Below are positions 2,231 through 53,624 of a stretch of 64,000 nt of DNA, piece by piece. The notes beneath the pieces are model-generated. The model made no database searches and had not been told where the DNA came from. It was given only the letters and a program-made list of their open reading frames with translations. Source of the stretch: Alkalimarinus coralli (lineage in GTDB: Bacteria > Pseudomonadota > Gammaproteobacteria > Pseudomonadales > Oleiphilaceae); the NCBI RefSeq assembly GCF_023650515.1, contig NZ_CP096016.1:1202001-1266000 (forward strand), read 5' to 3'. The translations under genes were made by a program, and so were the position numbers. Positions within the stretch are counted from its first letter, which is position 1. Each line of letters opens with the position of its first letter.

Positions 2231-2527
2231 ATGACCAAGTCTGAATTAGTCGAAATTATTGCGTCAAAGCAAACACAGTTATCTGTCAAAGATGTTGAGT
2301 TAGCCGTAAAAACGATAATTGACCTTATGTCTCAAACACTCTCTCAGGGGCAGCGTATTGAGATTAGAGGTTTTGGAAGCTTTTCACTGCATTATAGGGC
2401 TCCCCGTTCGGGAAGAAATCCAAAAACTGGAGAGTCTGTTCAGTTGTCAGCAAAGTATGTACCTCATTTCAAGCCTGGGAAAGAGCTTAGGGATCAGGTG
2501 AATGACAGTTTGAAGGCGGGTTATTAG
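2231..2527 (+). CDS. ihfB: Integration host factor subunit beta
   Basis: A 98-residue DNA-bending protein of the HU/IHF family that pairs with IhfA. The start at [10 protein letters not shown] is chosen because an AAGGAAAGGG Shine-Dalgarno sequence sits just upstream at 2214-2223; the longer frame to 2159 runs back into the rpsA terminator. Diagnostic features are the [10 protein letters not shown] strand, then [15 protein letters not shown], the beta-arm that intercalates into DNA with its Pro, and the C-terminal [12 protein letters not shown] helix. The position after rpsA is the conserved cmk-rpsA-ihfB order. Confidence 0.97.
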
Positions 2528-2666
2528 TCTGGCTGTAGCTGGCTAAAAACATGTCGTTTAATGCTAAAGCATTTCAAGTTTGATGTGTTATTATGTGGGG
2601 GCTTAGCGTCTGCAGTGTGTTCTTAGCTGGTGGGCAGTTCCACTTACTGATATATCGGAAAAAGCT

Positions 2667-2960
2667 ATGTCGTTAATACGACGAATTACTTACATTATTT
2701 TCGCCGTTATCGTTTTATTGATTGGCGTTCTTTTTACTTCCCGCAATAATCAGTTAGTATCTATTGATTACCTTATTGGAAGGTCTGACGAGTACTATCT
2801 CGCATTTTGGTTAATTTCCTCTTTTGTGCTGGGTGGGCTTCTTGGGGTCTTTGCTAGCAGCTCTGCAATTCTAAAATTAAAGACTCAGAAAAAACGTAGC
2901 GAAAAAAAGGCAAAAAACACCGAGGTTGAGTTAAGTCGCATTAAAGGTGGTGCCGCCTAG
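2667..2960 (+). CDS. lapA: Lipopolysaccharide assembly protein A (LapA, DUF1049)
   Basis: A 97-residue inner-membrane protein with two transmembrane segments, about residues 8-25 and 44-66, joined by a short loop and followed by a charged, probably coiled-coil tail (KLKTQKKRSEKKAKNTEVEL). In enterobacteria LapA works with LapB to direct FtsH to LpxC and so set the rate of LPS synthesis. The gene lies 8 bp before lapB, as in other Gammaproteobacteria, so the pair is almost certainly co-transcribed. Family assignment rests on size, topology and neighbour. Confidence 0.9.
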   Translation: MSLIRRITYIIFAVIVLLIGVLFTSRNNQLVSIDYLIGRSDEYYLAFWLISSFVLGGLLGVFASSSAILKLKTQKKRSEKKAKNTEVELSRIKGGAA

Positions 2961-2968
2961 GGATTCTG

Positions 2969-4141
2969 ATGGAGACGGTTTTTCAGTGGCTAATGCTTGT
3001 TGTTGCAATTGGTATTGGTTGGGCTTTAGGGTACGCAACGCGAAGCAAGCTGTTCTCAGGCAGTGACTCTCCACCTTCTTCAAATTTAAAAGATCGTCTT
3101 AAACTCCTATTTGAAGCCTACTCGGATGAGGCTGTTGATTCGTTTGTGCAGTCTCTTGAGGTTAATGGAGAGACAATAGGGATGCATTTGTCTATCGGAA
3201 AACACTTCCGCAAGAATGGAGAGGTCGAAAAGGCGTTACTTGTTCATCAAAATCTGATGTCTAGGCCTGAGGTGCCCAGTCACTACTCGAGTGAAGTTAT
3301 CTTTGAGCTGGCAAAAGACTATATGGTTGCTGGCTTGCTGGATCGGGCGGAATCTCTATTTCTCCAGCTGAAAGACTCAAGAGAGTTTGGTCAAAAAAGC
3401 TTAATGTGTCTGGTTGACATATATCAGCAAGAGAAAGAGTGGGGGAAGGCGTTAAATTGTGGTTTAACTTATCATTCGAGTAAGGGGGAGGATATTTCAG
3501 TAATGCTCTCTCATTTTTTATGTGAGTTAGCCGAATTGTTGATTAAAGAGCATGATTACTGGGATGCTCGAAATAAGCTAAGAGAGGCTCTAGCGCTAAA
3601 CAAAAATTGTGTTAGGGCGACACTGCTGTTGGCAGAGATGCATGTTAGTGAGGGGCATTATGCTGAGGCGGTGGCAGTGCTTCGAAAGGTTGAAGGGCAG
3701 AACTATCGCTTTATTCCTGAGATTGTCCCCGTCCTTTTTGAGTGCTCGCAGCAACTTAAGACGGAAGAGAGGTTTCGCCAGTACCTGGAAAAGTTGTCTG
3801 ATAGAAATGAGTTATCCAGTATTGTTCTAGCGATTGCAGAGAGTTATAGGCGAGAGAAGGGGGTGTCAAAAGCTGAAAGCTTTTTGTCAGAAAGCCTCAT
3901 AAAAAAGCCCAGTTTAAAAGGGTTGGATCGGCTAATGGATTACAGGTCTCTTCTGGTTGATTCTGAAGGAAAGCAAAGGGACTTGAGTATTGTTAAGCAG
4001 GTGACCCAGCTGCTATTGGTCGATAGGCCTGTATATCAGTGTGAAGGGTGTGGCTTTTCCGGAGAGGTGCTTCATTGGCAGTGCCCAAGCTGTAAGGGGT
4101 GGGAATTGATTGCGCCGATTGAAGGGGTTCACGGTGAATAA
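2969..4141 (+). CDS. lapB: Lipopolysaccharide assembly protein B (LapB/YciM)
   Basis: A 390-residue protein with an N-terminal membrane anchor (about residues 4-21), a long stretch of TPR-like helical pairs facing the cytoplasm, and a C-terminal rubredoxin-type zinc knuckle with Cys358, Cys361, Cys372 and Cys375 (CEGC...CPSC). LapB couples FtsH to degradation of LpxC, and the zinc domain is needed for that function in E. coli. Length, domain order and the adjacent lapA all agree. Confidence 0.95.
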   Translation: METVFQWLMLVVAIGIGWALGYATRSKLFSGSDSPPSSNLKDRLKLLFEAYSDEAVDSFVQSLEVNGETIGMHLSIGKHFRKNGEVEKALLVHQNLMSRPEVPSHYSSEVIFELAKDYMVAGLLDRAESLFLQLKDSREFGQKSLMCLVDIYQQEKEWGKALNCGLTYHSSKGEDISVMLSHFLCELAELLIKEHDYWDARNKLREALALNKNCVRATLLLAEMHVSEGHYAEAVAVLRKVEGQNYRFIPEIVPVLFECSQQLKTEERFRQYLEKLSDRNELSSIVLAIAESYRREKGVSKAESFLSESLIKKPSLKGLDRLMDYRSLLVDSEGKQRDLSIVKQVTQLLLVDRPVYQCEGCGFSGEVLHWQCPSCKGWELIAPIEGVHGE

Positions 4142-5408: not shown

Positions 5409-6593
5409 TTACCCTAGCGCTTTTTTGATTCTTTCGATAGCAGACTCAAGCACTTCCATGCTGGTAGCAAAGCTCAGTCGCATATGCCCAGGTGTGCCAA
5501 AAGCAGACCCTGGCACCAGAGCAACTCCTACAGTAGAAAGTAGTTGCTCGGCAAGCTCTACATCGGTTGATACGCCTTCTGTTGCATCGATAGCGCCCTG
5601 AAAGCTCGGGAAAACATAAAATGTTCCGTCTCCGTCAATACAGCTGACGCCAGGTATTTCATTAAGAGCATCAACAAGGTAATCATGCCGCTTTTTAAAC
5701 TCGCTAACCATTGAGGCGACACAGTCCTGTGGGCCATTTAAAGCCGCTTCTGCTGCTGCCTGTGAAATAGAGGCTGGGTTAGAGGTGCTCTGGGATTGAA
5801 TTTTCTTCATTGCTGCAATGACTTTTTGTGGGCCGGCAGCATATCCTATGCGCCAGCCTGTCATTGAGTAAGCCTTTGATACACCGTTTAATACGAATGT
5901 TCTGTCGTAAAGCTCTGGGCACGTGTTTACAATATTGCAAAATGGTTCATCGCCCCAGATGATGTGCTCGTACATATCATCAGTTGCGATATAGATGTTG
6001 GGATGCTTTTTCAGTACGCTCGCAATTTCGCTTAGCTCCTGTCGCGAATAGGCAACGCCTGTTGGGTTTGAAGGGCTGTTAAGCACAACAAGTTTAGTCT
6101 TTGGGGTAATGGCGTTTTCTAACTGCTCAGCTGTTATTTTAAATCTCTGTTCCTGCGAGGTTTCAATAACGACAGGGGTGCCTTCTGCAACAAGAACCAT
6201 GTCTGGGTAAGAAACCCAGTACGGGGCAGGGATTATTACTTCATCGCCCGGGTTCAAAAGCGCTAGGGCGAGATTGAAAAAGCTTTGCTTGCCGCCAGAC
6301 GAAACCAAAATCTGGGCGGGCTCATAAGAAAGGTTATTGTCGCGCTTAAACTTGTTAATAATTGCTGCTTTAAGGCTTGGTGTACCGTCAACTGCTGTGT
6401 ATTTGGTTTTACCTTCATTAATTGCTGCAATAGCGGCGTCTTTAATATGGCTAGGGGTGTCAAAGTCAGGCTCGCCTGCACCAAGACCAATAATATCTTG
6501 TCCCGCTGCCCGTAATTCGGCTGCTTTGTTCGTTACTGCAAGAGTAGGAGAAGGTTTGATTTGTTGTACACGATTAGAAAGTTGAACGTCCAA
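5409..6593 (-). CDS. Class I/II PLP-dependent aspartate aminotransferase (subgroup Ib)
   Basis: A 394-residue fold-type I aminotransferase that moves the amino group of aspartate to 2-oxoglutarate in the cytoplasm. Visible: GLGAGEPDFDTP at the N-terminus (alpha-carboxylate binding), the YTAVDGTPSLK segment, NSPSNPTG (PLP/substrate Asn), the PLP-binding lysine Lys240 in NGVSKAYSMTGWR, and the C-terminal MRLSFATS arginine. The sequence type resembles the thermophile/Rhizobium AatA branch rather than E. coli AspC, so related activities such as prephenate or arogenate transamination cannot be excluded. It is transcribed away from uvrB. Confidence 0.9.
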   Translation of the reverse strand: MDVQLSNRVQQIKPSPTLAVTNKAAELRAAGQDIIGLGAGEPDFDTPSHIKDAAIAAINEGKTKYTAVDGTPSLKAAIINKFKRDNNLSYEPAQILVSSGGKQSFFNLALALLNPGDEVIIPAPYWVSYPDMVLVAEGTPVVIETSQEQRFKITAEQLENAITPKTKLVVLNSPSNPTGVAYSRQELSEIASVLKKHPNIYIATDDMYEHIIWGDEPFCNIVNTCPELYDRTFVLNGVSKAYSMTGWRIGYAAGPQKVIAAMKKIQSQSTSNPASISQAAAEAALNGPQDCVASMVSEFKKRHDYLVDALNEIPGVSCIDGDGTFYVFPSFQGAIDATEGVSTDVELAEQLLSTVGVALVPGSAFGTPGHMRLSFATSMEVLESAIERIKKALG

Positions 6594-40716: not shown

Positions 40717-41574
40717 ATGACTCCATTACGTCAGAAAATGATTGACCTTATGCTGGTCAAGAGATTTTCTCCCCGCACTCAGCAAAGTTACCTATATAGT
40801 GTCCAGTCATTGGCACAATACTATCATTGCTCACCGGATCAACTGGGGCAGGATGAGATTCAGCGTTATCTGATTTACTTGGTGAAAGAGAAGAATCTGG
40901 CGGCAAACAGCTGTCGTTTGCAACTGAACGGCATCCGTTTTTTCTTTCACCATGTGTTAAAACGACCCCCTTATCATTTGGTTCTGCATTATCCTCGTCG
41001 CCCGCTACAGATACCGGAACTATTAAGTCGTAGTGAAGCGTTGCGTATTGTGAATGCTCCGCAGAACCTCAAACACCGAACTCAGTTGAAGTTGTGTTAT
41101 GGCTGTGGTTTACGGGTCAGTGAAGTGGTGGCCGTACGGATTAAGGATATCGATGGCGAGCGTCAGTTGCTCCGGGTCGAGCAAGGGAAAGGCGCTAAAG
41201 ATCGGTTTGTTCCGCTGTCGCCAAGGCTATTGGAACAGTTGCGAGAATATTGGAGACACTACCGTCCCCGAGAGCACCTGTTTGATTCAAACCATCTTGG
41301 TCATGCCACTGGAGTTTCAACTGTCCAAAGAGTCTACACCCGCAGTAAAAAGCAGGCGGGAGTCACGAAAAAAGGCGGTATTCATGCACTACGCCATGCC
41401 TTTGCTACCCAGCAACTGGAAGCGGGATTGCCGATTCACTTGCTCCAGTGTTGGTTAGGGCACAAGGATATCCATACCACGATGCGCTATGTTCACTGGG
41501 TGCCGCACTATCAAGCTGGTCGGAGCTGTTTTGCCGACTTATTGGACAAGGGAGGCTATCATGCTCCCGATTAA
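40717..41574 (+). CDS. Tyrosine recombinase associated with IS91-type element
   Basis: A 285-residue integrase of the XerC/D type: SAM-like N-terminal domain (FSPRTQQSYLYSVQSLAQYY), then the catalytic core with Arg in CGLRVSEVVAVRIKDID, the Lys beta-hairpin GKGAKDRFVPL, HALRHAFATQQLE (His-x-x-Arg), WLGHKDIHTTMRYVH (His and nucleophile Tyr). It lacks the extra helix region that marks integron integrases (IntI), and it points the same way as the cassettes, so it is not the array's integrase. AAAGGAG precedes the ATG. Confidence 0.88.
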   Translation: MTPLRQKMIDLMLVKRFSPRTQQSYLYSVQSLAQYYHCSPDQLGQDEIQRYLIYLVKEKNLAANSCRLQLNGIRFFFHHVLKRPPYHLVLHYPRRPLQIPELLSRSEALRIVNAPQNLKHRTQLKLCYGCGLRVSEVVAVRIKDIDGERQLLRVEQGKGAKDRFVPLSPRLLEQLREYWRHYRPREHLFDSNHLGHATGVSTVQRVYTRSKKQAGVTKKGGIHALRHAFATQQLEAGLPIHLLQCWLGHKDIHTTMRYVHWVPHYQAGRSCFADLLDKGGYHAPD

Positions 41575-42718
41575 AATGTCTGACGTATTAGCTCAATTTG
41601 GAGCATCCTATTCGAAACAGTACCCTTTGCGCCCAGAGCAGCAACAGGTAGTCACTTGCATAAAGCAGTGCCGCACCGGAGTTTTGGGCGGTGTGCAGCT
41701 ACACTGTAACCATTGTGGGTTTGAGCGTTCTCACTATTACTCATGCCGAAACCGGCACTGCCCTCAATGTCAGCAGCAGGCTTCTCAAGCTTGGCGTGAC
41801 CAGCGGCAGCAGGATCTATTGCCAGTCCCATACTTCCACCTGGTGTTTACGCTACCGCATTCACTCAACGGGTGGGTAAGGCTGCACCCGAGAGAGATCT
41901 ACGGGTTACTCTTCAATGCTGTTTGGCAAACACTAAAGCAGTTTGCCAGTGATCCGAAACGCCTGGATGGGCAGTTGGGTATGACAGCAGTGCTGCATAC
42001 TTGGGGGCAACAGCTTGATCAACATGTCCACTTGCATTGTCTTATTCCCGCAGGCGCCTGGAATCAGGAAACTCAGCAATGGCACCCCGCTCGATCATCG
42101 TACCTGTTTCCGGTTAAGGCCCTATCCAGGGGATACCGGGGCCGTATGGTGAGTTTGTTGCGGCAAGCGTATGGAAACGGGGAGTTGGAGGGCATAACGC
42201 GCAAGGGAGAGGTCGATAAACTGCTGAATGAGTTAATGGGGAAAAACTGGGTTGTTTACACCAAAACATGTCATGGAAATCCTGAACGAGTGCTGGATTA
42301 CCTGGCCCGTTATACCCATCGAATTGCCATCAGTGAATCACGTCTGCTAGAGCTAAAAGAGGAGTCTGTGCGGTTTCGCTGGAAGGACTACCGGGATGGC
42401 CAGCATAAAATAATGCAGCTAGCCGGCATAGAGTTTTTGCGGCGATTTTTGCAGCATGTGTTACCCAAAGCATTTATGCGCATTAGACATTATGGTTTTC
42501 TATCGAACCGGTACCGGAAAATTAAACTAGAGGCCATCAGGAAAAAACTGATGAACACAAACAGTCGGGATGCTACGACCCGTTCCGCAATGGATACAGA
42601 AGAAAATGATATAAAGGTAAAAAGTGCATCCGTGTGGTATTGCAGTCGCTGTAAGTCGATAGATACCCGAATATTGCCATGGATTGCACTATTAAAGGAG
42701 CGCCCGAGAATGATCTAA
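41561..42718 (+). CDS. IS91 family transposase (HUH, rolling-circle type)
   Basis: A 385-residue transposase. The start at ATG 41561 follows AGGGAGG and overlaps the recombinase by 14 bases, so the two are translationally coupled. Features: zinc ribbon CNHCGF...CRNRHCPQCQ, the HUH motif HVHLHCLIP, catalytic Tyr in VLDYLARYTHRIAIS, and a C-terminal Cys pair in WYCSRCKS. The length is near full size. It should mobilise flanking DNA by one-ended, rolling-circle-like transposition. Confidence 0.9.
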   Translation: MLPIKMSDVLAQFGASYSKQYPLRPEQQQVVTCIKQCRTGVLGGVQLHCNHCGFERSHYYSCRNRHCPQCQQQASQAWRDQRQQDLLPVPYFHLVFTLPHSLNGWVRLHPREIYGLLFNAVWQTLKQFASDPKRLDGQLGMTAVLHTWGQQLDQHVHLHCLIPAGAWNQETQQWHPARSSYLFPVKALSRGYRGRMVSLLRQAYGNGELEGITRKGEVDKLLNELMGKNWVVYTKTCHGNPERVLDYLARYTHRIAISESRLLELKEESVRFRWKDYRDGQHKIMQLAGIEFLRRFLQHVLPKAFMRIRHYGFLSNRYRKIKLEAIRKKLMNTNSRDATTRSAMDTEENDIKVKSASVWYCSRCKSIDTRILPWIALLKERPRMI

Positions 42719-43459: not shown

Positions 43460-43558
43460 ACATAACAAGTTGCTGCAACGGACATGGTACAGTGGGCACC
43501 TTTTTTGAAAAAACACTCAAAAAAGTCGCCAACTGTACCATGCCGCAGAGCTAGGCGT
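43460..43558 (+). other. Integron attC site 1 (interrupted by intron 1)
   Basis: R' ACATAAC (43460-43466), L' GCTGCAACGGACA, a variable stem with TTTTTTGA...TCAAAAAA, L'' TGCCGCAGAGC, and the first two bases of R'' (GT, 43557-43558). The intron then interrupts, and the R'' continues at 45436-45440 (TAAAT), giving GTTAAAT. About 104 bp when joined. Confidence 0.85.
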
Positions 43559-45435
43559 GTGTGCCAGGCATGGCACTTAACTAGTTGGGTGAAAGTCCCG
43601 ATACCAGGTATTCGCAGAGCCGAAGGTTAGCCAAAGGGCAAGGGCCAACTCGTGAGGGGCGGTCTGAAGGAAGCTCAAGGCAAATTCGCGGGGCGATGAA
43701 CAAGAACCCAATAAGAGGTGTGACGTATTCGGGGCCAGTGGGCACGTGACCATTAAGCCCTCCATCTGCAATCGGGATACGTTTTATAAATTGGGCGTCT
43801 ACGCGAGGAAAGTTAAGTGTCTTACCCTGGGAGGTCTCCTGATGTTGCGCTGGGACGCTGCGTGCAGCTGAAAACCGCTGAGGGTCGAGCAATTGACTCC
43901 GACCGCACAGGAGAAGTCAGCAGAGGGCATAGTACCGGTGATTACTCGGCTGGATTTTTTTTTCCAGAAGTGAATGTCTAAGGGAAGGCCCGAACGGTGC
44001 CCTTTATCGGGTTTAAATGAAGAGAGTAGTTATTGAAACAATGGATCTAGGTATGGCATCCGAACAGGATGAAACCCAGGTTGGGTTATTCAAAGAAGAC
44101 GCTCCGGTTATCAATGATCAACTGATGGAACGGGTGCTGGAACGTGAAAACCTCCAACGTGCTTTCCGTCAAGTCAAACGCAACAAAGGAAGCGCGGGGA
44201 TAGACGGGATGACCGTTGACGACCTGACCGCCTTTGTCAATCAACACTGGCCCAAGATTCATCAACAACTTCTGGAAGGTAACTACCGGCCACAACCGGT
44301 CAGACAGGTAGAAATACCCAAGCCCAAAGGCGGTGTTCGGAAATTGGGTATACCAACGGTACTAGATCGCTTAATCCAACAGGCATTGCTCCAGGTCTTA
44401 CAAGCAGAGTGGGACGGAAGCTTCTCCCATTTTAGCTATGGTTTTAGACCGGGCAAGTCGGCCCATCAGGCTATCCGTCAATCGCAACACTTCATCAATG
44501 AAGGGTATAAGTGGACGGTGGACATGGATCTGGAGAAGTTCTTCGACAGAGTGAACCATGACAAGCTGATGAGCCTGATTAAACGCCGAACCCAAGATAA
44601 GCGTGTTCTTAAGCTGATCAATAGCTTCCTAAAGGCAGGAGCACTAAGCGGAGACGTTTGGGTTCCAGCTTCAGAGGGTACGCCCCAAGGAGGCCCCCTT
44701 TCACCACTGTTAGCGAATGTGCTCCTGGATGAATTTGATAAAGAGCTCGAAGCGAGAGGGCACAGGTTCGTGCGCTACGCGGACGATTGTAACATCTATG
44801 TGAAGAGTGCTCGTTCAGGCGAGCGCGTGTTGGCCTCGGTCACACGCTACTTATCAAACCGGCTAAAGCTCAAAGTAAACAGTGAAAAGAGTGCAGTTGA
44901 TCGACCTTGGAATCGCTCATTCCTGGGATTAACGTTTAGCCGACGAAGAAAGCGAAAGGTGAGCGACGAGTCAATACAACGTTTTAAGTATCGAGTCCGT
45001 CAAATAACCAAGCGAACCCGTGGGCGTTCCATAGAAGCAATCTACAAAGAACTTTCGGCGTACATGCGGGGCTGGAAGGCTTACTTTGGTATAGCGGAAG
45101 TAAAGTCTCCTTTATTAGACCTAGCTAAATGGGTACGGAGGAAGTTAAGATGCTATCTTTGGAAGCAATGGGGACGATCAGGCTACCGGCAGTTAAGAAA
45201 ACGGGGTATAGATAGATGGCTAGCCTGGAACACGGCGAAGTCAGCGCATGGCCCGTGGCGTTTGAGTGGGAGTCCGGCGTTAAGATACGCACTGCCAACG
45301 AAGTACTTTGTGGCAGTGGGTATACCGGAACTTGTTGATCGCAAATAACTCAATCAACCGAACCGCCATGGTACGTGATCCGTATGCCTGGTGGTGTGGG
45401 GGGAGAGGCATCGTGAGGTGTCTCCCTATCCCGAT
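43559..45435 (+). mobile_element. Group II intron 1 (IIC-like) in attC R''
   Basis: A 1877-bp intron: 5' end GTGTGCC, an early GTGAAAGTCCC segment typical of bacterial group II domain I, the RT/maturase in domain IV, domain V near 45361-45396 with a CCGCC...GGTGG base (CGC-type triad, as in class IIC), and 3' end CCCGAT. Ends were fixed by requiring reconstruction of attC: exons GGCGT and TAAAT join to GGCGTTAAAT, whose TTAAAT is complementary to the R' of the same cassette. IIC introns insert beside hairpins, and attC-specific IIC introns are known. Confidence 0.85.
44017..45348 (+). CDS. ltrA: Group II intron reverse transcriptase/maturase (intron 1)
   Basis: A 443-residue intron-encoded protein. 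RT blocks are GSAGIDGMTVDDL (RT1-2), SYGFRPGKSAHQA, VDMDLEKFFDRVNHD (first catalytic Asp), GTPQGGPLSPLLANVLLDEFDKEL, RYADDCNIYV (YADD) and LGLTFSRRR. The maturase X region is YMRGWKAYFGI. There is no HNH endonuclease, as in IIC proteins. All blocks are intact, so it is likely functional. Confidence 0.93.
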   Translation: MKRVVIETMDLGMASEQDETQVGLFKEDAPVINDQLMERVLERENLQRAFRQVKRNKGSAGIDGMTVDDLTAFVNQHWPKIHQQLLEGNYRPQPVRQVEIPKPKGGVRKLGIPTVLDRLIQQALLQVLQAEWDGSFSHFSYGFRPGKSAHQAIRQSQHFINEGYKWTVDMDLEKFFDRVNHDKLMSLIKRRTQDKRVLKLINSFLKAGALSGDVWVPASEGTPQGGPLSPLLANVLLDEFDKELEARGHRFVRYADDCNIYVKSARSGERVLASVTRYLSNRLKLKVNSEKSAVDRPWNRSFLGLTFSRRRKRKVSDESIQRFKYRVRQITKRTRGRSIEAIYKELSAYMRGWKAYFGIAEVKSPLLDLAKWVRRKLRCYLWKQWGRSGYRQLRKRGIDRWLAWNTAKSAHGPWRLSGSPALRYALPTKYFVAVGIPELVDRK

Positions 45436-45459: not shown

Positions 45460-45840
45460 ATGGATATCGGCTTTATAGTTATTCATGCAATGTGGTCTGC
45501 ATGTTCAGCATTACTAGTCGGGTTATGGCAAGAATTTGGAGAAACGCGAATCCCTCCTTTAGAGTGGATTCCCATTGATCAAGAAGAGCCTGAACTCAAA
45601 AGGTCAAAAAGGTCTGTTCAGCAGAGACTATGGTTTTTATCTTCATGTGCCATGTTAGGATTCTTTGTCGGTGCTCTAATTAGTTTCTACATAAAAGGTT
45701 TCATGATAGAAACGCCGCCAAATGAATATGCAATCATGTTTTATATATTGCTTGGTGGTTTTTTAATGCCAAACATCCTTTTGTTCTTAAACAAACTTAA
45801 AATTAGTAAGTATGCAGGCAAAGTGCTTGGAAAAATTTAA
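45460..45840 (+). CDS. Cassette gene 2: small membrane protein, unknown function
   Basis: A 126-residue protein with an N-terminal hydrophobic segment (FIVIHAMWSACSALLVGLW) and two further transmembrane helices (about 57-76 and 90-111), separated by charged loops. No family recognised. AAAGGAG precedes the ATG. The TAA stop lies in the R' site of attC 2 (ATTTAAC), which is interrupted at that point by intron 2. The cassette begins with TTAAAT, matching that R' in complement. Confidence 0.75.
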   Translation: MDIGFIVIHAMWSACSALLVGLWQEFGETRIPPLEWIPIDQEEPELKRSKRSVQQRLWFLSSCAMLGFFVGALISFYIKGFMIETPPNEYAIMFYILLGGFLMPNILLFLNKLKISKYAGKVLGKI

Positions 45841-47781
45841 TCGGGTAGCCGAGGGTCTCTAACCCTCAGCCCCCACAACACCCTGCATGCGGGTCCGCAC
45901 AGGGCGTTTCACTCAGGATAGTGAAGCTTAATCCAACCATCACGTAACGAGTAAAGCCCCTGAGATTTCAGGTAATCCAGAGATAAAGCCTGATTGATCC
46001 CTGGGGTCTTAGCGCTACGCCATGGGCCTTTGCTGGTAATGCCACACGCGACTGCGGCCTGGACATGAACACCTAGCCTCATCAGACTTCGTACCTTGGT
46101 TCGTGGCTTTCGCCACTGTCGCCAATAAGCCATTCTCACTCTGCGTCGAATCCAATGATCCAGATCGACACAAAGTTGATAGCAATTGGCGATACCAAAG
46201 TAATTAATCCAACCTCGTAAGTACTGGCTGATTTTGAAGAGTTGGTATTTCATCGACACGCCCCAGTTACGGTTCGTTAGTTGCCGTATTTGCTGCTTAA
46301 ATTTCAGCAGCGTTTTCGGGTGCCATTGAATGCGTCCTCCTTTGAAGGTAAACCCTAAGAATTTGCTTTCACTGGTTTTAACGACATGGCTTTTGGTCGT
46401 ATTAACGACTAATTTCAAACGGCGTTGCAGGTATCCACTGATACTCCGAAGAACCCGTTCGCCAGCACGCTTACTCTTCACTAAAATCGTAAAGTCGTCA
46501 GCATAACGAGCGAACTGGTGGCCTCGTTTCTCTAGTTCTTTGTCTAGCGGGTCGAGCATGATGTTAGCGAGTAACGGCGATAATGGCCCGCCTTGCGGAA
46601 CACCTTCTTGACTCTCACTATAGAGCTGGTTATCGCCATTCAATTTTAAGGTCAGCCCAGCTCGGAGGTAACACTTAATCAATTTGAGAAGACGCTTGTC
46701 CCTTACTTTGTAGCCAAGGTGCGTCATCAATAAATCGTGGTTAACTCGATCAAAGAACTTAGACAGGTCAACATCAACAGCAAAGCGGCGTCCCGTTTTG
46801 ATGATGCCTTGAACCTGCTTAACCGCTTGTTGCCCATTACGATTTGGACGAAACCCGAAACTATTGTTCGAAAAGTCTGGGTCGAAAATGGGTGTTAGGA
46901 CTTGGGCAATGGCTTGCTGAATAACACGGTCTGTGACCGTGGGAATCCCTAATTGCCGTTTACCGCCATCTGGTTTATCGATTTCAACACGCCTGACCGG
47001 AGAGGGTGAGTATTGACCTGTTTCGAGATCAGTTGTCACCTTAATCCAGTTGCCTGCTTTAACCCAAGCGGGGAACTCATCGATGGTCATACCATCAATG
47101 CCAGCGGCCCCTTTATTAGCTCGAACGCGTTTCCATGCTGCCTGAAAGTTCTCAGGGCGTAGTACTTGTTCAAGTAGATTTTCGCTAAAGGCTGGCTTCA
47201 TACCAGTACGCTGAGTCACGTCTTCACCGGTCGGTGTTCGTGTATTCAAGTCTGACAAGGCTCCTCCTTTATTCAACTAAGTGTTCAGGCCTTCACCATG
47301 TCCCATCCATTACGATGGGCGTTGGGCTACTATGCCGTCTGCTGACTTCTGCTTAATCACCCACAAGGTTACCCCTGCTGGCGCTATCGGTTTTCATCTA
47401 GTTCGCTCTCTTTGGTTGATGAGTCCAAAGAGCCAAGGCACTTCTATACCAGAGCCTTACTGGTTATTGACCGATCGCTTGTTAAGCAGATCTCCCCAGA
47501 TAAGAACATGAACTTTCCCTGCGCAACTGCATCATTTACGGTGGCCGTTAGATCACATGGCTTCGTCGTCTTGTGCCAACTCGCCTTCAGCCTACGCCTC
47601 ATATGATGTTCTTGTTCATCAGCTCGCAGTTTTGCTAGCGGCTTCCTTCAGACCAAACCTCGCGGTTAAGCCCTTGCCATTCGCTAGTAGTTAGCATCTA
47701 ATAACGATATTAATCGCTAAGGATGGTGACCTTCCTACAGAGGACTTTCACCTCATTAGTTCATGCCCATGCTGGGCGTAC
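45840..47781 (-). mobile_element. Group II intron 2 (IIC-like), minus strand, in attC R'
   Basis: A 1942-bp intron read on the minus strand. It has 5' end GTACGCCC at 47781, GTGAAAGTCC in domain I, the RT gene, domain V near 45875-45910 (AACGCCC...GGGTGTT base, CGC triad) and 3' end CCCGAT at 45840. Exons on the bottom strand are CTTGT and TAAAT, so the target is TTGT/T as for attC-specific IIC introns. Removing it gives ATTTAACAAGCGG on the top strand, a proper R'-L'. A GTGTACG start two bases earlier is possible from sequence alone but would destroy R'. Confidence 0.85.
45909..47276 (-). CDS. ltrA: Group II intron reverse transcriptase/maturase (intron 2)
   Basis: A 455-residue protein, about as long as the intron 1 protein but clearly different in sequence. 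RT motifs are GAAGIDGMTIDEF, SFGFRPNRNGQQA, VDVDLSKFFDRVNHD, GVPQGGPLSPLLANIMLDPLDKEL, RYADDFTILV and LGFTFKGGRI. The maturase domain has YLRGWINYFGI and no endonuclease domain follows. Intact. It is encoded on the strand opposite the cassette genes, following the orientation of the intron. Confidence 0.93.
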   Translation of the reverse strand: MNKGGALSDLNTRTPTGEDVTQRTGMKPAFSENLLEQVLRPENFQAAWKRVRANKGAAGIDGMTIDEFPAWVKAGNWIKVTTDLETGQYSPSPVRRVEIDKPDGGKRQLGIPTVTDRVIQQAIAQVLTPIFDPDFSNNSFGFRPNRNGQQAVKQVQGIIKTGRRFAVDVDLSKFFDRVNHDLLMTHLGYKVRDKRLLKLIKCYLRAGLTLKLNGDNQLYSESQEGVPQGGPLSPLLANIMLDPLDKELEKRGHQFARYADDFTILVKSKRAGERVLRSISGYLQRRLKLVVNTTKSHVVKTSESKFLGFTFKGGRIQWHPKTLLKFKQQIRQLTNRNWGVSMKYQLFKISQYLRGWINYFGIANCYQLCVDLDHWIRRRVRMAYWRQWRKPRTKVRSLMRLGVHVQAAVACGITSKGPWRSAKTPGINQALSLDYLKSQGLYSLRDGWIKLHYPE

Positions 47782-47878
47782 ACAAGCGGCTGCACCGGAC
47801 AAATTTCTGCTGTCATCTTTTGTGCAAAAAGACGCACAAAAGCCGCCATCAAAAATTTGCTCGGTGAGCCGGGCGTTA
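47782..47878 (+). other. Integron attC site 2, core piece (interrupted at both ends by introns)
   Basis: Joined structure: R' = ATTTA (45835-45839) + AC (47782-47783); L' GCTGCACCGGAC; stem with TTTTGTGC...GCACAAAA; L'' GCTCGGTGAGCCGGGC; R'' = GTTA (47875-47878) + GCC (49842-49844). Intron 2 splits R' and intron 3 splits R''. About 105 bp when joined. Confidence 0.85.
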
Positions 47879-49841
47879 GTGCGTCAAGCGAAGCTTGATG
47901 CATCTAGCAGGGTGAAAGTCCCTGCCGGGTAAGGGTTAGCCACTCACCCGTATCGAGTGTTGCGCCGGTCGCGGAGTTCAGGGAGAGAAAGTACTTTCCT
48001 GTCAGTGGATGCGTCCACTGACCACTGGACGAACAAAGCAGGTGAAGCGTACACAGAGAATCATATAGGCCATAGGGAATGCGTGTTCCTGAAGTGCTGG
48101 TATCGCTCCGATAATTAATAAAGTTCTGGTTGATGAGGCTTGTAACGCCGTCGAAGTCCATGCAAAGCAACCGTTAGTGGTGAGGTTGTGGAGAGCCAGC
48201 GGGGTTATCAAGCCGTGGCATGTATGAAGAGATGCATTAGGAACTTGAGAGATCCGAGTATGCTCCTGAAGGAACAGGTAGGGATGTTAAGCTTAAAAGC
48301 AAGACTAACGATGGCGACTCGGAAGTCGGATCAGTTCATAGTAGTCCGAGGGCGGGAAAACCGTCTACATGGCGAAGGGACTGACAGTTATATCACAGTG
48401 TGCAACAGACACATAGTCCGGACAAAGTAGGGCTGGAATCACTATGACAACCTCATTGCACACTATCGCATTTAAAGCACAAAGCCACCCCAAGCACAGA
48501 TTTCAGAACTTATATGGATTGCTAAGTGCTGATCTTCTGTATCAAAGTTGGGGGCAACTTAACAAGCAAACAGCAGCCGGTATTGATGGGGCCACAATCC
48601 CAGACTACCAAAAGCACTTGCCTGAAAATATTAATCGCCTAGCTGATCAGCTCAAACATAAGCAGTACCGAGCATCAGCTATCAAGCGAGTCTTTATTCC
48701 CAAAGCCAATGGTAAACAGAGGCCACTAGGGCTGCCAACAGTTGATGATAAAGTGGTTCAGCAGAGTGTTAGTCAGATACTGCAAAGCATCTGGGAACAA
48801 GACTTTCTGCGAAACAGCTACGGTTATCGACCGAACAAGAGCGCACATCAAGCCGTGAATAGCTTAGCCCTTAATCTGCAATTTCAGGGTTATGGTTATA
48901 TCGTTGAAGCTGATATCAAAGGCTTCTTCGATAATATGGATCATGCATGGTTAATTCAAATGCTGGAACAACGGATTGACGATAAAGCGCTTCTTAGTCT
49001 GATTAAACAGTGGCTGAAGGCACGAGTGAAATCACCGGATGGAGTGTTTAGTAAACCGGTGGCGGGCACACCGCAAGGTGGTGTCGTCAGCCCAGTGTTA
49101 GCTAACATCTACCTTCACTACGTGATTGACCTTTGGTTTGAAAAGAAAGTGAAGCCTCAGTTGCATGGCAGAGCTATGTTGATCCGCTACGCGGATGACT
49201 TTGTTGTGGCCTTTCAACGGAAGTGTGACGCAGAGAGTTTCTATCAGGATCTACCTTCACGACTCAGTAAATTTGGGTTAGAAGTGGCACCAGATAAAAC
49301 ACATTTGAAGCACTTCAGTCGGTTTCACCCTGGAAGAAAGCGCAGTTTTCAATTTCTTGGCTTTGAGTTCTACTGGAGTCAAGATGTGAATGGCAAACCG
49401 CGTTTGCGAAGGCGAACAGCACCGAAGAAACAGAAGGGTGCAATGAGTGAGTTTTACCGGTGGATAAAATATAATCGCTCTAAGCCGCTACGTGAGATTA
49501 TGCCTGTCTTGAGACGAAAACTGATGGGCTTTCGGAACTACTTTGGCTTACCTTCAAACAGTCGGAGCCTTGCCCGTTTATACACTTATGTTTTGCATAG
49601 TTTGTATAAATGGCTAAACAGGCGAAGTCAGCGAAGAAGCTATAACTGGAGTAGTTTCAAAGATATGTTAGGATATTTTCAAGTTGAACCAATACGAGTG
49701 AGCAAGAGAATGACACTTGTAGATTGGTATTAGGCACGTGAATTACACGAGCGAATATATAACTGAGGAGCCGGATGCGGTAGTTCCGCACGTCCGGATC
49801 TGCGTGGGGGCGGCTTGGGTAACCGGCCGTTCTACCACTAC
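47879..49841 (+). mobile_element. Group II intron 3 (AGC-type domain V) in attC R''
   Basis: A 1963-bp intron. It starts with GTGCGTCAAGCG, has GGTGAAAGTCCC in domain I, an RT gene, domain V near 49765-49803 (GAGCCGGATGCGG...CCGCACGTCCGG, AGC-type triad), a domain VI stem and 3' end ACCACTAC. Exons GGGCGTTA and GCCTCCC join to R'' GTTAGCC, the exact complement of the next R' (GGCTAAC at 50563). The domain V and protein differ from introns 1 and 2, so this is a separate intron class that also chose an attC. Confidence 0.82.
48444..49733 (+). CDS. ltrA: Group II intron reverse transcriptase/maturase (intron 3)
   Basis: A 429-residue protein. RT blocks are TAAGIDGATIPDY, SYGYRPNKSAHQA, VEADIKGFFDNMDHAWL, GTPQGGVVSPVLANIYLHYVIDLWFEK, RYADDFVVAF and LGFEFYW, and the maturase segment is RKLMGFRNYFGLPSNSRSL. 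No HNH domain. The blocks GVVSPVLANIYLHYVLD and FFDNMDH mark a lineage different from the IIC-type proteins at 44017 and 45909. Intact. Confidence 0.93.
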   Translation: MTTSLHTIAFKAQSHPKHRFQNLYGLLSADLLYQSWGQLNKQTAAGIDGATIPDYQKHLPENINRLADQLKHKQYRASAIKRVFIPKANGKQRPLGLPTVDDKVVQQSVSQILQSIWEQDFLRNSYGYRPNKSAHQAVNSLALNLQFQGYGYIVEADIKGFFDNMDHAWLIQMLEQRIDDKALLSLIKQWLKARVKSPDGVFSKPVAGTPQGGVVSPVLANIYLHYVIDLWFEKKVKPQLHGRAMLIRYADDFVVAFQRKCDAESFYQDLPSRLSKFGLEVAPDKTHLKHFSRFHPGRKRSFQFLGFEFYWSQDVNGKPRLRRRTAPKKQKGAMSEFYRWIKYNRSKPLREIMPVLRRKLMGFRNYFGLPSNSRSLARLYTYVLHSLYKWLNRRSQRRSYNWSSFKDMLGYFQVEPIRVSKRMTLVDWY

Positions 49842-49857
49842 GCCTCCCAAGGAAACT

Positions 49858-50568
49858 ATGAGCGAGTCTTGGCATAAAACTGAAACAGATTTAGACGCAG
49901 AAAAACATGTTGGTGATTTTTGGTCTCGCCATCGTGACGAATTGCAATCGGGTGAGTTCTGGGCCGACAGAATCAAACAGCTACGAGGAGAGCCTGTAAA
50001 GAGACTGGCAGTTGCTTTAGAAAATATGCCCTTACCCGCTTCTTTTAGAGAGGCAGCGATTGCTACAAGAGCTTTAATACGGGACAAAAGAAAGCAAAAA
50101 GCCTCCTATGATGAAGAGCTCGCTCTTTTGTATTGGCTGGCCGCCATTAACTCTTTTTCAATCCCCTATTCAGAAGTGCTCAAAGAGCCTGGTTATAATG
50201 TGATCGAGTCAATTCCTGGAAAGAAACTGAAAGGACTTCCTTTTTCCTACAAATCACTTGGCTATGAAAAACTAGCATTATTGAATAAAACAGACATCAA
50301 GTGGCTTACCGAAAGCTGGGGAGAGCCAGATGAGCATACAACACTTCATAAAATGCATAATGATGTTTGGGTTGAATATGAATTGAAACTGAAAGGTAAG
50401 AGAAAGCAAAGAGAAAAGGAGTTTCTAAATAGTATTGGCATGGGTGCTAATGCTAAACACGCTCTTCCAGAGCCATCTAACACCCGCAAAAATAGTAAAA
50501 GCACCAAATGGGTAGCGGTTGCTGTGATTTTTTTGGCGCTGTTACTCGCTGTGGTGTTGGGAGGCTAA
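49858..50568 (+). CDS. Cassette gene 3: tail-anchored hypothetical protein
   Basis: A 236-residue protein. The start MSESWHKTETDL follows AAGGAAACT and lies 16 bp after the 3' end of intron 3, directly in the cassette head. The body is helical and charged with no recognised family; the last 20 residues (WVAVAVIFLALLLAVVLGG) form a C-terminal membrane anchor. The stop codon TAA lies inside the attC 3 R' site (GGCTAAC), a common cassette layout. Confidence 0.72.
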   Translation: MSESWHKTETDLDAEKHVGDFWSRHRDELQSGEFWADRIKQLRGEPVKRLAVALENMPLPASFREAAIATRALIRDKRKQKASYDEELALLYWLAAINSFSIPYSEVLKEPGYNVIESIPGKKLKGLPFSYKSLGYEKLALLNKTDIKWLTESWGEPDEHTTLHKMHNDVWVEYELKLKGKRKQREKEFLNSIGMGANAKHALPEPSNTRKNSKSTKWVAVAVIFLALLLAVVLGG

Positions 50569-50633
50569 CAAGTGCAGGCAGCAGGACAAAATACTCGCAA
50601 GCTCGCATTTTGCCTCTGCTGCAGGCGTTAGGC
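50563..50633 (+). other. Integron attC site 3
   Basis: R' GGCTAAC (50563-50569), L' GCAGGCAGCAGGAC, stem AAAAT.../...ATTTT, L'' CTGCTGCAGGC, R'' GTTAGGC (50627-50633). Uninterrupted, 71 bp, the best-preserved attC in the window. Confidence 0.93.
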
Positions 50634-51392: not shown

Positions 51393-51495
51393 GCCTAACC
51401 AAAAGCAGCAACGGACTCCATAATCTGTCGCGGTTTTTGCAAAGAAACGCAAAAAGCCCCGCCAAATTATTCCGCCGTTGTGCTTGGCGTTAGGC
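51393..51495 (+). other. Integron attC site 4
   Basis: R' GCCTAAC (51393-51399), L' GCAGCAACGGAC, long stem with GGTTTTTGC...GCAAAAAGCC, L'' TTGTGCTTGGC, R'' GTTAGGC (51489-51495). 103 bp and intact. Confidence 0.93.
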
Positions 51496-51524: not shown

Positions 51525-51887
51525 ATGAATTTAGAACTCCCAAAGGCATTAGTGTTATGGTCAAAACAAAATGACCATGCTGGTTTTATGTTGTTATCAA
51601 TTGAGCAAGGCATACAAAAGGGAGAATGTGTGTTTATGCTTTCCCCATCTTCAATTGAAGGTATTGAAAGTCAAATGGGTATCGTTGTTTCAGAATTAAA
51701 AGAGCAGGGCGAACATGACTTTTCAATTAGTTTAAATGAGTCAGGTATAGATATCTGTGTAGAACCAACTGATTTACCCGTAATTACATTTAAACTTAAT
51801 AATGAGTTTTCGGGAGATGTATTTACCGAGTTTGATGGTAAAGTACAATGTATTGGTTCAGTAGAACCGGCAAAGAAAAATGCCTAA
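51525..51887 (+). CDS. Cassette gene 5: hypothetical protein
   Basis: A 120-residue soluble protein of unknown function, with alternating strands and one central helix (IEGIESQMGIVVSELKEQG) and a cluster of acidic residues. No signal peptide or membrane helix. Its stop codon TAA lies in R' of attC 5 (GCCTAAC at 51882-51888), where an IS1111-type element is inserted two bases later. Low-GC codon use is like cassettes 1 and 6. Confidence 0.72.
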   Translation: MNLELPKALVLWSKQNDHAGFMLLSIEQGIQKGECVFMLSPSSIEGIESQMGIVVSELKEQGEHDFSISLNESGIDICVEPTDLPVITFKLNNEFSGDVFTEFDGKVQCIGSVEPAKKNA

Positions 51888-51889
51888 CA

Positions 51890-52372
51890 TCTATATGACC
51901 GGTGTTTGTCAAGGGCACAAATCTCCGTAGGCCCCCAAGGAAAAGGACTCGGAATTTTAACTGTCCCCTGAGTCCTGTTTTTTCTACTGCTGTCGATTCT
52001 TTCATCACCGTAGTCAGCTCAGAAGAACTGCTCACAAACATCTATCGAGGTTCTGCTGAAGGTTTCCCTTCAGTATGTACCTACCTTGAAGCCAAGGCGA
52101 TACCCTAGAAATCAATCGGTTACCCTTGGTTCCGGCGCTTCAAAAGTCGGGCTCGCTTTACAACCTGCGTCCAGTTACAGCTCACTCGGTCAAGGGGCAG
52201 TTCCAAAACAAATCAGGGCGGTACAACATACTGTCCATTCAAGGCAGAGGTGGTTCGCGTATCGTCCAATTAAGAGGCGTGAAGTTCAAGACTTAGGACG
52301 TTAACCCCTTATACTCTGGCTCACGCTTGACACCAACAGTTATACGTTGGGGCTCAGTATGTTGTACCTAAA
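51890..52372 (-). ncRNA. Predicted bridge-RNA region of the IS1111 element
   Basis: Long non-coding 3' part of the IS. IS110-family recombination uses a structured RNA whose loops pair with target and donor. A small hairpin CCAAC-loop-GTTGG at about 52333-52350 with AGTTATAC in its loop is one candidate structure; I did not derive the base-pairing to attC. Inferred from element organisation only. Confidence 0.35.
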
Positions 52373-53416
52373 CTAAGCGTTAAAAAAATATTTAATATCG
52401 AAAGCGTCATTCCTCTTGAGAATAAAATAAACCGCACGACCGAGCTTGTGGGCTAGCATGGAGATTGCCTTGCCTTTACCGTGTTTTCGAGAGTTCTTTT
52501 CAATAAACTTTTTTGCCTGAGGGCTTTCTCGTATCAACAGCACAGCCGCTTCGCTGAAGGCCCACTTGAGATGAGCATTGCCAATTTTACCACCGGAATA
52601 ACCGTAGTTTTTACCTGCAGATTCTTTGGCGCACTTAACCAGACGAGAGTATGAACAGAAGTCCTGCACGGTAGGAAATCGATGAATGTCCTGAATCTCA
52701 TATAGAATGGTTAACGCGAGAACTAATCCAATTCCCGGCACAGTTTGCAAACGATAGAACGCGCGAGGGTCGTACTGCTTGGCATGTTTAACGATAAAGC
52801 GCTCAATGGCGACGATTTTCTCTTGCAAGATATCCATCGTGCCGATATCAGTCTCAACATTCATTCGTACCGCGGGGTCTTTAAAGCGTTCGATAATATG
52901 AAGGCGGTTGCCTTTCTTACTAATCTGCTTTTCGAACGGCGGTAAATTGTACTGATAGTTGGTGATGGAGATATGAGCCTGCACTTCACCTTTTAGATGA
53001 ACCAGGTAGCAACGACGGCGCATCAGATCACGGATAGGGCGAGCTTCAGGCGGGTAGACATATGCCATAGGAAAGTTCTTGCCCAACATAATGCGGGCAA
53101 TCTTCTCGGAGTCGATTTTGTCATTCTTAGTTTTACCGCCATGAATGCACTTCATATAAAGAGCATGACCGAGGATAAATTTAATTCCCTGTTGATGACA
53201 GACATCAGCAATCCAGTACCAGGAGAAAATACACTCAACGCCGACTACAAGGTCTTCCCGATAGGGCTGAATTAAATCAAGGAAGGTTTGGGCGTCAGTC
53301 GGTATATTCTTGTGAATCAGAATGTTAGCCTTCTGATCAAGGATGCAGACAAACATCATTTTGGTATGTAAGTCGATACCACAGTGAAATTTGTGCTGTT
53401 TAGTATAGAATTTCAT
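52373..53416 (-). CDS. IS110/IS1111 family transposase
   Basis: A 347-residue DEDD-type recombinase. The N-terminal RuvC-like domain begins HCGIDLHTKMMFVCILD, with NDKIDSEKIARIML further on. The C-terminal Transposase_20 domain contains TVPGIGLVLALTILYEI and the serine-bearing YSGGKIGNAHLKWAFSEAAVLLI. The gene is intact and preceded by GGAGGCC on the minus strand. Used with an element-encoded RNA to recombine into attC. Confidence 0.93.
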   Translation of the reverse strand: MKFYTKQHKFHCGIDLHTKMMFVCILDQKANILIHKNIPTDAQTFLDLIQPYREDLVVGVECIFSWYWIADVCHQQGIKFILGHALYMKCIHGGKTKNDKIDSEKIARIMLGKNFPMAYVYPPEARPIRDLMRRRCYLVHLKGEVQAHISITNYQYNLPPFEKQISKKGNRLHIIERFKDPAVRMNVETDIGTMDILQEKIVAIERFIVKHAKQYDPRAFYRLQTVPGIGLVLALTILYEIQDIHRFPTVQDFCSYSRLVKCAKESAGKNYGYSGGKIGNAHLKWAFSEAAVLLIRESPQAKKFIEKNSRKHGKGKAISMLAHKLGRAVYFILKRNDAFDIKYFFNA

Positions 53417-53518
53417 AATGATGGCCTCCTGAGGTATGTGCCTTTGAGCACGTTACATCTTGGATGGTAGTTCAACCTACCAAGCCCGAAAATCCTTGGG
53501 AGGTCATCATTAGTATCA

Positions 53519-53624
53519 AGTGCATCTTGCGGACACTCACTACGCGCGGTCTTTTGTGCATGGCTTCGCCATTGTTGCACAAAATTCCGCACTCCGTTCG
53601 TGCGCGCAAATGCAGGCGTTAGAT
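53519..53624 (+). other. Integron attC site 5, right part
   Basis: Completes the R' GCCTAAC at 51882-51888. L' GTGCATCTTGCGGAC, stem TTTTGTGCA...TTGCACAAAA, L'' GCGCAAATGCAGGC, R'' GTTAGAT (53618-53624). R'' heads cassette 6, whose own R' should read ATCTAAC, which is not found downstream. Confidence 0.85.

Follow-up and report, generated by a model that had tools for sequence, protein, structure and literature searches.

An attC site of Alkalimarinus coralli occupied in its two half-sites by opposed group II introns of different lineages

Group IIC introns use a DNA hairpin instead of IBS2 in target recognition, as described in the accessible text of PMC3898094. Among them, the introns of the group IIC-attC (S.ma.I2 type) are reported, in the accessible part of PMC7923331, on the bottom strand of the R'' half-site of attC sites, with the junction TTGT/T, an upstream hairpin and an orientation antisense to the cassettes; the same source names the upstream half-site R'' and the downstream one R', a convention followed here. 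For IIC introns located in R' on the top strand there is one published precedent, from Enterobacter cloacae (Rodriguez-Martinez 2012, as cited in the accessible part of PMC7923331). Outside the IIC class, the available text of PMC7923331 describes a single metagenome case, UHB.I2 (IIB1/CL1), which lies directly after an attC in the orientation of the cassettes, has the boundaries UUGCG..GU and is given there no conserved exon; use of a hairpin instead of IBS2 by IIB introns at attC sites is put forward in that text as a speculation. IS1111-type elements, in the descriptions available, resemble such introns in being mobile and in using attC half-sites as targets, but are DNA transposons.

The window analysed here, a stretch of 64,000 nucleotides from the 4.83-Mb genome of Alkalimarinus coralli (G000:C1:1202001-1266000), carries successive gene cassettes together with their attC sites; positions given below refer to the window, unless marked as genomic. 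An intI family profile search of the genome at the family cut-off revealed no intI adjoining this array, and the sole intI above the cut-off (genomic 3317509-3318444) is located about 2.07 Mb away, so that the array is a CALIN. Just upstream of it (40717-42718), the gene of a tyrosine recombinase and that of an IS91-type transposase overlap; the recombinase scores below the integron integrase cut-off. The first two attCs of the array contain three complete group II introns. attC 1 (43460-43558, plus strand) extends from R'' (ACATAAC) to GGCGT, where its R' is interrupted by intron 1; its match to the covariance model R1, described below, spans 43460-43564 (62.5 bits). The cassette that terminates with attC 2 contains an ORF of 126 aa (45460-45840, plus strand), for which no Pfam match was found and whose stop codon overlaps the junction of intron 2. 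The following sites, attC 3 (50563-50633, 61.2 bits) and attC 4 (51393-51495, 67.5 bits), both on the plus strand, are unoccupied and belong to the R1 training set. Within 51885-53624, an IS110-family transposase gene (52373-53416, minus strand), flanked by an R''-like GCCTAAC (51885) and by the remaining part of an attC (R1 match 53511-53624), looks like an attC-targeting insertion sequence placed in the R'' of a further attC. Elsewhere in the genome, a 94-bp attC is repeated in two arrays (G000:C1:3310024-3315676 and 3511554-3520627), partly at 1509-bp steps, which suggests repeated cassettes.

attC 2 is split into three segments, all read on the plus strand. The first five bases of R'', ATTTA (45835-45839), are followed by intron 2, after which the site resumes with AC at 47782. 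The core (47782-47878), intact and exactly 97 bp long as originally predicted, comprises the L''-L' hairpin plus GGCGTTA and scores 65.8 bits with R1. The final three bases of R', GCC (49842-49844), stand after intron 3, and the next cassette begins there. The outer segments were assigned from the sequence and, for R'', also from uninterrupted relatives. When the flanks are joined without introns 2 and 3, a complete attC is obtained (ATTTAACAAG...GGGCGTTAGCC), in which the order R''-L''...L'-R', the AAC/GTT pair and a hairpin are all recognizable, as indicated by the R1 score, the fold and the uninterrupted relatives. The junctions, ATTTA(45839)/intron 2/AC(47782) and GGCGTTA(47878)/intron 3/GCC(49842), agree with the TTGT/T on the bottom strand and the GTTA/GCC on the top strand of the original prediction, in which the two half-site labels had been swapped: the half-site of intron 2 is R'' and that of intron 3 is R'. 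Junctions, Rfam matches and sequence thus confirm that two different, opposed introns occupy attC 2, one per half-site.

Folded alone as DNA, the core reaches -22.4 kcal/mol on the top strand and -29.0 kcal/mol on the bottom strand. The top-strand stem stops 7 bases short of the intron 3 junction, leaving GGCGTTA unpaired, and the bottom-strand stem stops 5 bases short of the intron 2 junction, leaving CTTGT unpaired; these two unpaired stretches are the IBS1s of introns 3 and 2, respectively. When the empty site is folded with its flanks joined, GGCGTTA also pairs in part with the following GCC, through a small GGC/GCC pairing at the R' end. Relatives of the 97-bp core, inspected with 14 bases of flank per side, are present in 24 of the 163 genomes of the family, G000 included. 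The window copy apart, those matching from the first base read ...TA/AC... on the left and ...GTTA/N or GTTG/N on the right. They are related to attC, as the original prediction required, and, at identities of 96.9% or less, run uninterrupted through both junctions; the closest (L114, in G079), 96.9% identical, reads CATTTA/ACAAGCGG...GGGCGTTA/AATG. Among the relatives so compared, the window copy alone is interrupted at both ends.

attC sites were searched for by means of a covariance model, R1, derived from 21 unoccupied attCs and built because scores based on the arms only, dropped for this reason, were too weak and missed obvious attCs. attC 1 and attC 2 are outside the training set. R1 favours the attCs of loci with a relative of intron 3, since 15 of its 21 training attCs come from such loci, never being the occupied site itself. 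attCs of other make are missed: in G000, three of the four sites of intron-1-type copies are found (L010 is missed), and in 11 relatives (L077-L080, L082, L084, L086, L110, L111, L132, L133) no junction is recognised. Junctions missed by R1 were judged by eye, where read, from an upstream AAC half-site and CGT/TA at the junction; two of the junctions so judged lie in attCs of annotated cassettes. In G000, 150 of 964 first-look candidates were scored with R1, and the attC count at E<=0.01 is therefore at least 35.

Intron 2 (45840-47781, minus strand, 1942 bp) is inserted in the bottom strand of R'' (CTTGT/TAAAT), antisense to the cassettes. It matches RF02001, RF01998 and RF00029 on the minus strand (D1-D4 and D5-D6), has the domain V triad CGC, as expected for a IIC ribozyme, and the EBS1 loop ACAAG. 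Its reverse transcriptase/maturase (45909-47276, minus strand, 455 aa; PF00078, PF08388) is an open frame with an intact YADD. It is a textbook IIC-attC intron, showing no essential difference from the S.ma.I2 type as far as the latter is described in the accessible text, apart from sharing its attC with another intron; its spliced junction would be CTTGTTAAAT in a bottom-strand transcript. Within its lineage, 15 of the 19 junctions read, including those of the 450-aa and 455-aa types of G000, coincide with the R'' of an R1-recognised attC, the remaining ones being L095, at a terminator, L102 and L107, both attC-like when judged by eye, and L015, which stands behind another copy of an intron. 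The EBS1 loop is ACAAG in 15 of 16 bottom-strand R'' IIC introns read (ACCAG in L102). In the RT tree the bottom-strand R'' IIC rows make up a single supported clade, in which L095, located after a terminator, is also included. Four intron-2-type and four intron-1-type copies are present in G000. Two of the former stand head to tail with no spacer (L064, G000:C1:1583584-1586890): one lies in the R'' of an attC, while the second has the 3' end of the first as its 5' exon, with no EBS1 match.

Intron 1 (43559-45435, plus strand, 1877 bp) is also a group IIC intron, inserted in the top strand of the attC 1 R' (GGCGT/TAAAT). Its Rfam matches, RF02001 and RF01998, cover parts of D1-D4, and its reverse transcriptase/maturase (44017-45348, plus strand, 443 aa; PF00078, PF08388) likewise has an open frame and an intact YADD. 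Judging from the description available for the Enterobacter cloacae intron, the two are alike in class, in attC strand and in cassette orientation; unlike that intron, intron 1 is chromosomal, and its EBS1 loop, ACGTG, is found in relatives from several families. Such relatives are present in a number of genomes, and also on the plasmids pR148 and pPp47, where they occupy the aadA1 and aac(6')-Ib4 attCs. The EBS1 loop sets the two IIC groups apart, being ACGTG in every one of the top-strand R' introns read (13) and, L102 excepted, ACAAG in the bottom-strand R'' ones; the loops of L084, L133, L013 and L095, for which the motif search landed elsewhere, were excluded. In two introns at terminators, L134 and L135, pairing with the exon involves bases 1-3 of the EBS1 loop. 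A single clade of the top-strand R' IIC introns was not demonstrated in the RT tree, where long branches are seen for L062 and L005.

Intron 3 (47879-49841, plus strand, 1963 bp) is inserted in the top strand of the attC 2 R' (GGCGTTA/GCC). On the plus strand it matches RF02005 (D1-D4) above the cut-off and, in D5-D6, RF00029 at 37.9 bits, below the gathering score of 40. Its reverse transcriptase/maturase (48444-49733, plus strand, 429 aa), an open frame with an intact YADD, contains RT and maturase domains only (PF00078, PF08388). The AGC triad of domain V, the RF02005 match and the position of the RT outside the IIC rows all set it outside group IIC, while the AGC domain V and the GUGYG..AY ends are those of IIB introns. 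In the RT tree long branches (1.67 and 0.92, with 100/100 support) separate its RT from those of IIC introns; introns 2 and 3 differ, as predicted, both in domain V, CGC vs AGC, and in their RTs, which lie across a fully supported split. A position-wise pairing scan located EBS1, TAACGCC (48143-48149, plus strand), the complement of GGCGTTA. Over 23 introns of the family, the mean EBS1-IBS1 pairing was 5.67 out of 6, a value reached in none of 40 exon shuffles (range 5.48-5.63); matched changes on the two sides are seen in L021 (CAACGCC/GGCGTTG) and L032 (TAACATT/AGTGTTA). L034, L035, L058, L089, distant rows, short rows and loci added later were omitted from the scan; the EBS1 motif is absent at the aligned place in L034, L035 and L040, and pairing is imperfect in L023 and L024. 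For EBS2-IBS2, the best mean in the same number of introns, 3.43 out of 6, fell within the range of 40 shuffles (3.13-3.52), a comparison in which poor alignment could hide a signal. The spliced junction would be GGCGTTAGCC in a top-strand transcript.

Relatives of the intron 3 RT were detected at 42 loci in all, the closer ones in marine Gammaproteobacteria and some distant ones in other phyla; matches on plasmids are all below 60%. A set of 36 sites was drawn from 40 distinct 5' ends by dropping the 5'-truncated L026 7992 and L040 3037, the distant L043, which lacks GTTA, and L058, whose 5' end is altered. L035 and L052, with identical junctions in two genomes, were merged as one, and the distant members L087, L088 and L090 were retained. 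The 5' exon ends with GTTA in 33 of the 36 sites, with GTTG in two and with GTCA in one (L024). Nineteen junctions coincide with the R' of an R1-recognised attC (E<=0.05), always on the strand of the intron; L023, truncated where its contig ends (E=8.3), and L167, at E=0.3, were counted as misses. These data suggest that intron 3 may represent a little-described lineage, often choosing the downstream half-site. Like UHB.I2 it is not IIC, follows an attC directly and has the cassette orientation; its family is set apart from UHB.I2, as the latter is described in the accessible text, by a mostly GUGCG 5' end and a conserved GTTA exon. New here would be the lineage itself, which is not IIC and whose conserved target is the R' of attCs, UHB.I2 being one isolated likeness in the print sources available.

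Two further arrangements were observed in this family. L025, L034, L035 and L052 have a common non-attC site, ...CTACAG(T/C)CTCGTTA, located about 150 bp after an attC in L034 and L052; in L034 and L035 the EBS1 region is rearranged. In Catenovulum sediminis (L026), a 648-bp cassette is present twice (2370-3017 and 5894-6540, 99.8% identical), one copy being followed, after GTTA, by an intron 3 relative, the other being without intron; this would be compatible alike with intron insertion after the duplication and with integrase insertion beside an intron-bearing site.

The arrangement of attC 2 had been proposed as the only case of its kind, a view superseded by the finding of three more doubly occupied attCs, which makes four, in three genomes (G000, G059 and G496). 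Among the attCs of G000, at least 35, five carry a bottom-strand R'' intron, four a top-strand R' intron and two carry both; in the second of these (C1, genomic 3307504-3307609) the core is flanked by an intron of the intron-2 type and one of the intron-1 type. In G059 the intron-2-type copy contains two stops, and in G496 the part of the R' intron that was seen is limited to its 5' end. Under independence, two or more doubly hit sites among at least 35 attCs have P=0.09. Double occupancy of attCs recurs and requires no special cause; selection for it was considered and rejected as superfluous, independent hits being sufficient. No attC with opposed introns in its two half-sites was found described in the literature searched, key subscription papers lying outside that search.

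On these grounds, it is very probable that two retromobile group II introns entered attC 2 separately, each by way of a strand-specific hairpin and of the unpaired bases 3' to it. The elements directly observed are the junctions, the domains, the EBS1 complementarity, the empty relatives and the recurrence. Each intron would have recognised the DNA hairpin formed by one attC strand, together with a few unpaired bases 3' of the stem. Intron 2, a IIC-attC intron with EBS1 ACAAG, would have entered the bottom strand by reverse splicing 3' of CTTGT, with R'' split as a result; intron 3, a non-IIC intron with EBS1 TAACGCC, would have entered the top strand in the same way, 3' of GGCGTTA and within R'. 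Since the two targets share neither an end nor a strand of the one hairpin, either insertion would spare the other target, leaving core, stem and the other tail untouched, so that double occupancy would arise without cooperation. Reverse splicing and hairpin recognition, like the order of the events and any current activity, are what we infer from sequence.

Intron 3 might instead be an ordinary homing intron for the 7-mer GGCGTTA, found in arrays merely because these are rich in the 7-mer, with the hairpin irrelevant, a reading which appears rather unlikely. Its EBS1 does pair with the 7-mer, sites with neither attC nor clear hairpin exist (e.g. L024, L053, L060), and, of the 70 other copies of GGCGTTA in the array-rich loci, 31 are themselves R' of attCs. 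However, G000 contains 1002 copies of GGCGTTA vs at least 35 attCs, an attC share of about 3.5%, to be compared with 19 of 36 intron sites. The chance of 19 or more attC sites out of 36 is 1.6e-10 at 10% per site and 0.19 at the rate of the array loci, 44%: the family prefers arrays or attCs, and counts alone do not separate the two. Strong hairpins adjoining IBS1 (p<=0.02, 60 shuffles), seen at 10 of the 19 attC sites, also argue against simple homing in that they adjoin 6 of the 17 non-attC sites, including the terminator-like L167. The scan, moreover, gave no signal for EBS2-IBS2, a pairing used by the IIB introns described in the accessible text of PMC3898094. Against the preferred reading stand the 11 non-attC and nine attC sites at which no such hairpin reaches the threshold, the family members with a missing or imperfect EBS1 match, and the GGC/GCC pairing in the joined empty site. 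A broader proposal is advanced tentatively, at somewhat less than an even chance: the non-IIC lineage of intron 3 may have given up EBS2-IBS2 and come to rely, like IIC introns, on a DNA hairpin plus an EBS1 match of 6-7 bp, tuned to the top-strand R' of attCs. Since it enters 3' of the crossover, with AAC...GTTA left intact, such an intron would become a spliceable 5' leader of the next cassette and could be moved by the integrase along with it; together with the two IIC lineages, attC would then serve three lineages as a target, with a separate half-site and EBS1 for each.

Two more explanations concern the arrangement as a whole. Recombination between arrays, or between dispersed intron copies, could have joined an intron-2-bearing and an intron-3-bearing attC half, and the four intron-1-type plus four intron-2-type copies of G000 make recombination possible, as does the presence of two intron-2-type copies head to tail. 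Nevertheless, the core is one continuous attC of 97 bp with matching arms, 96.9% identical to an uninterrupted attC, and the three other doubly occupied attCs have different cores, so that this origin is very unlikely. Selection of the arrangement for freezing cassettes in place, compatible with the splitting of the R'' AAC by intron 2 and with the change of the attC 1 R' GTT into GTG by intron 1, seems most improbable, given that the integrase crossover is intact beside intron 3 and that two double hits among the attCs of G000 fit the independence of five R'' and four R' hits. Separate entry of the two introns is therefore retained as the preferred reading.

The consequences for the cassettes differ among the introns. 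Within the site, only AAC/GTT is known to matter strongly to the integrase. At the junctions, intron 2 changes the R'' AAC into CAC and intron 1 the R' GTT into GTG, while intron 3, inserted 3' of the point G^TTA at which the integrase crosses over, keeps GTTA and leaves AAC...GTTA intact. The original prediction that both introns of attC 2 block excision is thus likely to hold for intron 2, which splits AAC; intron 3 need not by itself block excision, because the crossover is intact, and, when alone, it may keep the site functional and travel with the following cassette as its leader. Similarly, restoration of the transcript by splicing, also predicted, is possible only for introns 3 and 1: intron 2, being antisense to the cassettes, cannot splice from the cassette mRNA.

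attC sites represent a natural test bed for the choice of DNA by group II introns, in which, on one and the same hairpin, three lineages are directed by different EBS1 loops to two ends and two strands. Should the AGC-type lineage indeed substitute a hairpin for IBS2, hairpin recognition would extend beyond the IIC introns; if an attC bearing intron 3 stays recombinogenic, the intron would be a neutral passenger of integron cassettes.
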